Part shown: piece after piece, positions 21,102-35,020 of the stretch
Layout: each line of letters starts with the position of its first letter
Numbering within the stretch: the stretch's first letter is position 1
Source: Methanobacteriota archaeon
Lineage (GTDB): Archaea > Thermoplasmatota > Poseidoniia > Poseidoniales > Thalassarchaeaceae
Direction of reading: 5' to 3'
DNA length: 38,492 bases
NCBI GenBank assembly: GCA_004195715.1
Contig: PSPX01000009.1
Location: 50,592 to 89,083 of the forward strand
The notes under the pieces: model-generated
What the model was told of the DNA's origin: nothing
The model's database searches: none
Seen by the model: the letters and a program-made list of their open reading frames with translations, nothing else
Position numbers and translations under genes: made by a program

Positions 21102-21797
21102 TCACTCTTCTTCGGAGACCGCGCGGGGCTCGTGAACTTCCCTGAACACCACTACACCGACCCCAAGGTGGTCCCTCAGAGTACGTACGAGGCTGAACTT
21201 GGCAAAGGTCCAGTTCTGGTCATAGGCGATGGCCTCAGGAGTGGTGACGGTTAAGTCGTCACCTTCGAAGTCGACTTCGAAGTCGTCGCGGCCAGTGTTC
21301 ATGTTGAGCAATGTCTCGACTTTCTCGGTGCGGTCCTCGACTACCTTCGTGATTCGGTAGTCGTAGCGAAGGGTTACGCCAGCCAGCGGGTGGTTGTAGT
21401 CTATCCTCGCGCGCCCGGCGCTGAGGAATTGAAGGATACCTGTGCGACCGCCAATTTCGACCTGTGCGCCGATGCCGAGCATCTCAGGGTCTTTCACGCT
21501 GCGCAACAGGACGTTCTGGCCGATGGTCTCGACGAGGCTCGCATCACGCTCGCCGTAAGCGTCTGCGGCCTCGATGTCGAGGTTGTAGTCTGTCTCAGCC
21601 TCAGCCTCGGACAGATGGGCCTCGAATCCGGGAATCAATCGGCCGTCACCGATCACGGTAACCATGGGGGAGTAAGTTCGGGCCTCATCGTGGACGTCGT
21701 GCTCCTTGGCAGCCTCCTCGCGAGTCGTCTCGATGAGCTTCTCTGTCTCCGCATTAAAGAGATCGTAATCGATGTGAACTATCGTTCCGTCGTCCAT
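21102..21797 (-). CDS. FKBP-type peptidyl-prolyl cis-trans isomerase (SlyD/FKBP26-like)
   Basis: VTVIGDGRLIPGFEAHLSEAEAETDYNLDIEAADAYGERDASLVETI, DYNHPLAGVTLRYDYRITKV. Confidence 0.92.
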   Translation of the reverse strand: MDDGTIVHIDYDLFNAETEKLIETTREEAAKEHDVHDEARTYSPMVTVIGDGRLIPGFEAHLSEAEAETDYNLDIEAADAYGERDASLVETIGQNVLLRSVKDPEMLGIGAQVEIGGRTGILQFLSAGRARIDYNHPLAGVTLRYDYRITKVVEDRTEKVETLLNMNTGRDDFEVDFEGDDLTVTTPEAIAYDQNWTFAKFSLVRTLRDHLGVGVVVFREVHEPRAVSEEE

Positions 21798-32640: not shown

Positions 32641-34158
32641 CTATGCTGCAGACTCTGCTTCGACACTCTCTGTCGATGTGAACTGGCGAAGCCCCTCGCG
32701 CAGTACGTCGATAATAAGATCAATTTCGGCTGAGGTGATGGCGAAGTGAGGTGTAAACCTGAGAGCGTTCTGGCCACCATGGATAACGCCTAGTCCATTG
32801 AACCTACACCACTCTTCAACACATCCGAAGCCAACCACTGGGAGAATCTCGGGGTCGAGCTCGGCACATAGCAGTAGTCCGGTTCCCTGAACTTGGGTTA
32901 TTGTCCCGGGCATCTCCTCGGACAACGCCTCGAGTTTTTGGACGAACTCGACTCCGCGGTCCCTGATATTCTGCCTCAACTCTGGAGTGACTCGATCGAG
33001 CACTGAAATCGCCGTCTCGAGTGCCCTCGGATTGGTAGTCATCGTGTTGCCATAGATGCCGACGACGTACAGATTGGCAGCCCTCTCGGAGAGACCGACG
33101 ATGGAAAGCGGATACTGCCCGGCGTTGAGCGCCTTGGACCAGGTCTCCATGTCTGGGATCTCACAGTCCTCAAAGCCGTCGTAGTCGACAATGCTCAGGC
33201 AGCCCTGCCCGCGCAACCCAGCCTGTATGGAGTCGATGATTAGCATGCTGCCATGTGCTGTGCAACGTGAGCGGGCGGCATCGTAGAACTCCCTAGTGAC
33301 GCATTGGCCCGGATTGCCCTCGCCCATCACCGGCTCCATTGCCATGAGTTCGATGTAGAATCCCTCATCATCGGCCTGAGTGAAGGCCTCATGCAGTGCC
33401 TCTACGTCGTTGCTATCGACAAACATCACATTATCGCGATCTTGGAAGGTCGCGAGGTGTTCCTCGTAGCCCGTGCTGCATGAGTCTGAGATCATAGCTG
33501 GCCGCTGGGTCCTTCCATGGAAGGCATTGGTCAGAGCCAGTAATTTGGTCGGCTTGCCCTCGTGACGACCTCCTTCTCCAGTCATTGATTTCGTGTTGGC
33601 GTCGGCGATCCTCATCGAAATAGTGACCGATTCAGAGCCACTGTTGAGACAGACGAAACGCGAGAATGGACAGCCTCCTCGGCTGCGGCCTATCTCTCTG
33701 CGAAGCCTCTCAGCCAGACGTTTTTGACTGAATGACGGGGTCATCACATTGGCCATCACCCAGTTCTGCTGCATAGAGTGGATGACGTCATCAGGTCCGT
33801 GCCCCATTCCCATCATGCCGTAGCCGCCATTGTCATGCAGCACGGCCCCGTGTGAAGTGATGACCCATGGACCACGAGCCGCTATCGCGACATAGGGGTT
33901 GACAGTCGGGGCCGAGTAGAAATTCACGTAATCTGACTGAAGTTCGGACACGAGATTGACCTCCTCCATCTCGAACAGCCTGTCACCGAGGTCGCTCCTG
34001 AGACTCTGGAAATTGTCAGAGGCCTCATCAATCGCCCTGCTCAACGAGGGATCTGACTCTAGGAAGTCACGAATCACCTCGTCCCTTAGGCCGACGGTCC
34101 TAGGCTCACCTGTGTTGCGGCGAATCTTCGCTAGGGCTTCCATCCCGTCTCCCATCAT
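32641..34158 (-). CDS. Class III PLP-dependent aminotransferase (4-aminobutyrate/lysine/ornithine type)
   Basis: FVCLNSGSESVTISMRIADANTK, LTNAFHGRTQRPAMISDS, MLIIDSIQAGLRGQGCLSIVDYDGFEDCEIPDMETWSKALNAGQYPLSIV, GNTMTTNPRALETAISVL. Confidence 0.88.
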   Translation of the reverse strand: MMGDGMEALAKIRRNTGEPRTVGLRDEVIRDFLESDPSLSRAIDEASDNFQSLRSDLGDRLFEMEEVNLVSELQSDYVNFYSAPTVNPYVAIAARGPWVITSHGAVLHDNGGYGMMGMGHGPDDVIHSMQQNWVMANVMTPSFSQKRLAERLRREIGRSRGGCPFSRFVCLNSGSESVTISMRIADANTKSMTGEGGRHEGKPTKLLALTNAFHGRTQRPAMISDSCSTGYEEHLATFQDRDNVMFVDSNDVEALHEAFTQADDEGFYIELMAMEPVMGEGNPGQCVTREFYDAARSRCTAHGSMLIIDSIQAGLRGQGCLSIVDYDGFEDCEIPDMETWSKALNAGQYPLSIVGLSERAANLYVVGIYGNTMTTNPRALETAISVLDRVTPELRQNIRDRGVEFVQKLEALSEEMPGTITQVQGTGLLLCAELDPEILPVVGFGCVEEWCRFNGLGVIHGGQNALRFTPHFAITSAEIDLIIDVLREGLRQFTSTESVEAESAA

Positions 34159-34250
34159 CTCCGGGACACATCGATTCCCACATCAACATTTCCAGAATCG
34201 GATTCTAGAATCCGTACGGAAAAGGCCCGGATTCGGAAGAAACACGATTT

Positions 34251-34336
34251 CTGATAATCATACAAATAATCAAACTGACTTTAGTTTTTCAATTGAAAAT
34301 TTATGAATAAGACTAATTTTCCAATTGGATTATCAG
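34251..34336. promoter_or_regulatory. AT-rich nested dyad-symmetric intergenic region
   Basis: Outer exact 9-nt arms CTGATAATC (34251-34259) / GATTATCAG (34328-34336) around palindrome TTTTCAATTGAAAA (34286-34299); second palindrome TCCAATTGGA at 34320-34329. Confidence 0.6.
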
Positions 34337-34432
34337 TCTTTGATTACGGATAGTATAAGTGCCAAGCAGCCACTGAAAGAACAGGAGAAATGCCTGGGGA
34401 TGCACTTCTCCCCCCCGACAGGGAGGGATTTA

Positions 34433-35020
34433 ATGAGTGATGAATACAGAATACAGGAATTATTGGAGAGAGATGTCTACGTAGGCGAGACCAGAGTCGG
34501 TGTGATTACCGGTGAGAGATTTCATCCGCGCGACGAGCTTGTGCGGTCGATGCGGATTAAGGTCGATGGTGACGTGGCTGAGGAATACATGAGAAAGCCG
34601 GCGAAGTTCGCTCCGCTTTCGAAAGAACTGGTGCACAGCATACGGACTGACGGCGGTGTGAAGCTGTCGAAGTCGATGCGTGAGCTGCAGCGCAGATGGC
34701 GGAACACAGTCAGGATTGACGAAAAGCTGTACGCACCCGACGAACTGCTCGATAGAGCTGTTCTCGACAACGACGGCTTGGATCTAGGGAATGTAACCGG
34801 CATGGTGAAGATCAAGCGGACCTACAAGGGACTGGTCGTCCAGCCGCACTACATCGTGCGCTCTAGGCACGGCTTGCCTGACTCCATCGTGGTGCCGGTT
34901 GCCCAGTTGGCACGGACCACAGCAAGACTGGATGAAATCATACTGCGATGTTCAATGAAGAGACTGGTCACTCTGCCGAGTTTTCTCAAACTCAACAGCA
35001 AGGATTCGGAAGAGGAATGA
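34433..35020 (+). CDS. Conserved hypothetical protein (possible PRC-barrel-like)
   Basis: ATG 34433 preceded by GGGAGGG; MSDEYRIQELLERDVYVGETRVGVITGERFHPRDELVRSMRIKVD. Confidence 0.75.
   Translation: MSDEYRIQELLERDVYVGETRVGVITGERFHPRDELVRSMRIKVDGDVAEEYMRKPAKFAPLSKELVHSIRTDGGVKLSKSMRELQRRWRNTVRIDEKLYAPDELLDRAVLDNDGLDLGNVTGMVKIKRTYKGLVVQPHYIVRSRHGLPDSIVVPVAQLARTTARLDEIILRCSMKRLVTLPSFLKLNSKDSEEE

Follow-up and report, generated by a model that had tools for sequence, protein, structure and literature searches.

A conserved promoter control region upstream of an order-specific gene

The AT-rich intergenic island analyzed here most probably combines the upstream regulatory sequence and the core promoter of the gene that starts at position 34433 (hereafter the 34433 gene), and would be bound by a regulator at multiple sites. 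Judging from the comparison of genomes across the order, we regard it as a real promoter control region, conserved order-wide and unusually rigid. The dyads, the spacing between them, and their distance to the TATA-like box all appear to be under strong selection.

The window, that is, the whole stretch of 38,492 nucleotides that was analyzed (G000:C38:50592-89083), is part of a 1.45-Mb draft genome. The island lies in an intergenic gap of 274 bp (41% GC). On one side is the divergent neighbour, a class-III aminotransferase gene (32641..34158, minus strand) that is not tied to the element, and on the other side is the 34433 gene (34433..35020, plus strand), which encodes an order-restricted protein of 195 aa. 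Within the gap, a conserved promoter block of 116 bp (TTTCTGATAAT ... TATAAGTGCC, 34248..34363, plus strand) belongs to the 34433 gene. The block holds two dyads with CAATTG cores, two copies of a motif designated M2, and a TATA-like box of the 34433 gene (TATAAGTG, 34354..34361, plus strand), the last of which was assigned by sequence.

Repeats of the island

All of the repeats reported in the preliminary description were recovered in the window exactly where it had placed them. Specifically, these are a pair of exact 9-nt inverted outer arms (CTGATAATC at 34251-34259 and GATTATCAG at 34328-34336), a perfect 14-nt palindrome that constitutes the distal dyad (TTTTCAATTGAAAA, 34286-34299, core CAATTG 34290-34295), a second palindrome that constitutes the proximal dyad (TCCAATTGGA, 34320-34329, core CAATTG 34322-34327), and an 8-nt inverted pair (TAATCAAA at 34267-34274 and TTTGATTA at 34339-34346). 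The two CAATTG cores are 32 bp apart, and from the start of the proximal core to the TATA-like box the distance is again 32 bp. A scan of the 1.45-Mb draft genome for TTTTCAATTGAAAA, which had also been proposed, returned this gap as the single occurrence even when up to one mismatch was allowed.

Dinucleotide shuffling of positions 34186-34380 yielded palindromes at least 14 nt long in 2.2% of 1000 shuffles and an exact 9-nt inverted pair in 9.7%, while both together were obtained in 0 of 1000. Perfect palindromes of 12-20 nt occur at a dozen further places in the 38-kb window. Taken alone, the palindromes of the island are weak evidence; the case made by comparison with relatives is far stronger than that made by the sequence itself. 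Single palindromes as long as these are not uncommon in the window, as would be expected if the symmetry of this AT-rich gap had arisen by chance, but that explanation is refuted by the conservation and spacing of the sites across genera and families, and its probability is practically nil.

Two further palindromes were observed. One of 16 nt (CGGATTCTAGAATCCG, 34199-34214), absent from the preliminary description, is located on the aminotransferase side of the gap; similar inverted repeats occur in congeners (L003, L006, and L007), with both arms altered in L006. The other is a perfect 20-nt palindrome (CTTCGAAGTCGACTTCGAAG, 21263-21282) within an open reading frame.

Conservation of the block and of motif M2

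The order comprises two families, which differ in having smaller or larger genomes; this division, together with the gene content (MCM and two Orc1/Cdc6 genes in the group, L7Ae in the window), fits Ca. Poseidoniales (Marine Group II), to which these archaea almost certainly belong. Within family f1, 42 distinct orthologues from genera g1, g3, g4, g7, and g9 share a block length of exactly 116 bp; in genus g10 the length is 117 bp, owing to one 1-bp insertion. The block always precedes an orthologue of the 34433 gene in these six genera, and a sequence-only model of the block gave one full-length match per genome, at the 34433 gene, in about 88 genomes. When 29 loci were compared together, the block had a single length, the stretch from the block to the start codon took 9 lengths (60-71; a 3' flank of roughly 66 bp), and the stretch from the block to a conserved upstream CATCAA took 7. 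The middle of the block is poorly conserved in sequence, yet its length is constant, which points to helix phasing rather than to coding or RNA structure. Both the GATAAT of the distal M2 copy and the TATAAG of the TATA-like box are invariant in 33 of 33 alignment rows.

The distal copy of M2 is CTGATAATC at 34251..34259, which reads as GATTATCAG on the minus strand and is the exact inverse of 34328-34336; the proximal copy (GATTATCAGTC, 34328..34338, plus strand) is nearly invariant in f1. An inverted M2 copy upstream of the distal dyad is found in the genus of the window, where it forms the outer arms together with the proximal copy. These arms differ in relatives, in which CCGATAAT stands opposite ATTATCAG (L003, L006, L007, and L008) or CTGATAAT opposite ATTATCGG (L004 and L005). 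Since the arms are conserved but do not stay complementary to each other, they are best read as two copies of one motif and not as a hairpin, a structure that the uncompensated changes between them rule out. The preliminary description was therefore right about the exact inversion of the arms in the window, but their complementarity is not kept in relatives. Likewise, the 8-nt pair exists at 34267 and 34339 but is not conserved, its right arm falling in a variable stretch. The nearly concentric placement of the repeats is real and is a by-product of the fixed layout in f1.

The consensus of M2 is ATTATCMGYC in f1 and ATTAT[GA]CG[AT]CA in f2. The motif directly follows the proximal dyad in genera g1, g3, g4, g7, g8, and g9, and is found between the dyads in most of f2 and in g5 and g6. 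In f2, g5, and g6, ATTATNNGNC starts 15 bp before the start of the proximal CAATTG (112 genomes). The composite ATTATNNGNCNNNNNCAATTG was detected in 112 genomes, compared with ~4 matches for the control, and its distance to the 34433 gene downstream was nearly always about 115-127 bp. A different sequence, GGACAGTCTTATTACC, is conserved upstream of orc1-1 in the genus of the window (L041, L042, and L043) and has CAGTCTT in common with M2.

Layout across the order

The core layout in both families consists of CAATTG, 32 or 33 bp, a second CAATTG, about 32 bp, and a TATA-like box, and it is visible when representatives of about 20 genera from both families are aligned on CAATTG. Family f2 and genera g2, g5, g6, and g8 have drifted in sequence, and the layout remains. 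Matches to the pattern CAATTG-N26/27-CAATTG-N25..28-TWTA came from 146 of the 310 genomes, representing 15 of 22 genera, against ~4 matches for the reversed control pattern; the sampled genomes are related, and these genome counts do not represent independent events. Nearly all exact matches were located at the 34433 gene, at about 135-140 bp from its start in the pairs compared. About ten scattered other matches resemble coding sequence, and some others fall on the opposite strand of the same locus.

The spacing itself followed the same pattern. A distance of 32 or 33 separated 66 of the 212 CAATTG pairs lying up to 150 bp apart, and the last CAATTG preceded the TATA by 32 bp in 56 loci and by 64 bp (i.e., two steps) in 9 further loci in which the proximal dyad is degenerate. 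Over the 160 bp that precede the gene, CAATTG reached a density of 9.6/kb, versus about 0.5/kb in two sampled genomes. Some lineages showed variations: TATA-like variants are present at the same distance from the dyad in f2, the TATA-like box is 34-36 bp away in g5 and g6, and one dyad is degenerate in g7 and g10.

The alignment of orthologous regions that had been suggested as a check thus revealed that relatives keep the dyads, the 32-bp spacing, and the distance to the TATA. The preliminary description had left three interpretations side by side, namely a multi-site operator, an origin-like element, and a structured 5' UTR. The first is supported, since the dyads, the 32 bp between them, and the interval to the TATA-like box are conserved order-wide; the other two do not hold, as detailed below. 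Two broader roles were also considered and rejected. CAATTG does not qualify as a general promoter element, since it was not enriched 32 bp upstream of other TATA-like boxes in two sampled genomes, and a multi-gene regulon does not fit a full layout that occurs once per genome.

The controlled gene, its neighbours, and its leader

The 34433 protein was identified, nearly always in single copy, in 179 of the 195 genomes examined from the order; about 150 genomes from the rest of the phylum, five of them from the same class, yielded no match. Weak PRC-barrel matches at both ends are the sole domain evidence. A basic segment around KSMRELQRRWRNT is invariant in the protein, no relative in the PDB was found by sequence, and a single-sequence structure model, with a mean pLDDT of 30, was uninformative. 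The orthologue of the single-contig genome G002 (L144 / L145, G002:C1:1973634-1974207) is split into two overlapping frames. Downstream, the 34433 gene is followed by a tRNA-Ile, a phosphoribosyl-pyrophosphate synthase-like gene, and an L7Ae-like gene.

Conceivably, the 34433 protein itself binds the array, controls its own gene, and serves chromosome organization or segregation, in which case Marine Group II archaea would have a partition-like locus of a kind unique to them. Such a role would account for one site per genome beside a gene that is both universal in and restricted to the order, and the invariant basic segment would suit a binder of DNA, as would the precedent of CdvA, a PRC-barrel protein that forms filaments with DNA (PMC3132758). 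On the other hand, no ParA-like partner was seen adjoining the gene, the domain matches are weak, and the likeness to CdvA is confined to that domain, so that the prospect of such a locus is a very slim one.

The divergent neighbour is not constant. In G017 (L006 2364-3581) a different, lysine-aminotransferase-like aminotransferase occupies the same place, and in G022 (f2) the divergent gene is replaced by another gene. Since the dyads, the spacing, and the TATA-like box are kept in families where this neighbour changes, the element belongs to the 34433 gene. The same observation argues against a bidirectional control region shared by the PRC-barrel-like gene and the aminotransferase gene, as does inspection of the aminotransferase side, where no TATA-like box was seen at a fixed distance. 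Sharing would agree with the divergent arrangement of the genes and with a distal M2 copy that faces the aminotransferase and is as conserved in f1 as the proximal one, but we consider it unlikely.

The leader of the 34433 gene carries the invariant GGGGATGC and, in the putative 5' UTR, a leader motif with eight invariant columns (GGGGATGCA, 34396..34404, plus strand), the ATG of which starts short reading frames ahead of the gene in several relatives. Neither consensus pairs nor a conserved fold were detected among 22 sequences of the leader (34364-34435), and an Rfam scan of the window gave the tRNA as the sole match. The suggestion of a structured 5' UTR, or riboswitch, is contradicted by the absence of a consensus fold in these leaders and by the position of the repeats, which are upstream of the TATA-like box.

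A likely replication origin at another locus

The block has some features of a replication origin. It is AT-rich, contains inverted motifs of a protein-binding type, as do euryarchaeal ORB origins such as that of Methanomassiliicoccales (PMC4153887), and is present in one copy per genome. These genomes also have two Orc1/Cdc6 genes. On such a reading the block would be the chromosomal origin, or a second, non-ORB origin used by the divergent Orc1/Cdc6 paralogue; the dyads would serve as initiator boxes and the AT-rich block would be the unwinding element. The dyad may resemble the mini-ORB of Methanothermobacter, a likeness that was set aside. Unlike in ORB origins, the ORB consensus with its G-string is absent from the block, and an origin would not require a fixed distance to a TATA-like box.

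These genomes, in both f1 and f2, have an inverted pair of canonical ORBs at another conserved locus, about 150-165 bp apart around an AT-rich gap. In G020 (f2) and G015 (f1) the inverted pair, about 160 bp apart, lies between the ferredoxin and beta-CASP nuclease genes. The genome of the window has CACCCCTTCATTTCCATTGAAA at the same place (L176, G000 contig 4, locus 1283-1457), with the inverted TTCGACTGGAAATGAGAGGGAT ~150 bp further on, and similar pairs are present in G101 and G001; the pairs of these three genomes (G000, G101, and G001) are looser matches with three substitutions, and that of the window's own genome was recognized by position and sequence. The ferredoxin / beta-CASP locus (L176; also L167, L170, L174, and L182) is therefore likely to be the replication origin of the order, as far as its sequence indicates. 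Because of this inverted pair at another conserved locus, in the genome of the window as in others, the block is not read as an origin and the origin-like suggestion of the preliminary description is contradicted.

The distance to Orc1/Cdc6, which it had proposed to check, gave the same answer, the gap being far from both orc1 genes where this could be measured: the 34433 gene is 273 kb from orc1-2 in G126 and 144 kb from orc1-1 in G002. GC skew taken alone was uninformative, with no clear signal anywhere in the genomes looked at, and no skew change was seen at the block in G126. Overall, an origin function of the block is very unlikely. Single canonical ORBs were also observed just upstream of mcm in both families (L166 3896, L168 4119, L169 3826, and L171 3966), which suggests an Orc1-dependent control of mcm.

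Comparison with known systems and proposed mechanism

In archaeal control regions of the Lrp type, palindromic sites share one face of the DNA at intervals of two or three turns, a core site near the BRE/TATA has a highly constrained position, and there are further upstream sites, with about 100 bp being wrapped (PMC2995911). Examples from the Lrp family are Ptr2 acting on rb2/fdxA and Ss-LrpB acting on its own gene (PMC2995911). The block of the 34433 gene is similar in its clustered palindromic sites, placed three turns apart on one face, in a core site held at a constrained distance from the TATA-like box that follows it, and in its span of ~100 bp. It differs from them in the CAATTG core of its sites, in the extra motif M2, and in the occurrence of the full layout at one target per genome. 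The analogy concerns the mode of action and not the protein family of the putative binder.

By analogy with these systems, the following mechanism can be proposed for the promoter control region. The two CAATTG-core sites and the TATA box, set in steps of 32 bp or three helical turns, would all face the same side of the helix. Most likely, a putative dimeric regulator would occupy each dyad, and the dimers would cooperate in binding and bend or wrap roughly 100 bp. The dimer on the proximal dyad would touch TBP/TFB and so set the rate of transcription of the 34433 gene alone. From the conserved layout we infer the binding of a protein, the dimeric nature of the regulator, the use of TATAAGTG as a TATA box, and the effect on transcription; autoregulation by the 34433 product is possible. 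Some observations count against control by a regulator. A regulator with one target per genome is unusual, the position of M2 shifts between clades, the distances in g5 and g6 deviate, and dyads are degenerate in g7 and g10.

Implications for Marine Group II archaea

The gene regulation of Marine Group II archaea, an abundant and uncultured group, is little known. Besides the promoter control region, our analysis points to a likely origin site of these archaea, away from the block. A layout kept to the base pair throughout the order, in front of an order-specific gene, marks this gene as important and tightly controlled, and the block would provide a precise bait for finding its regulator.
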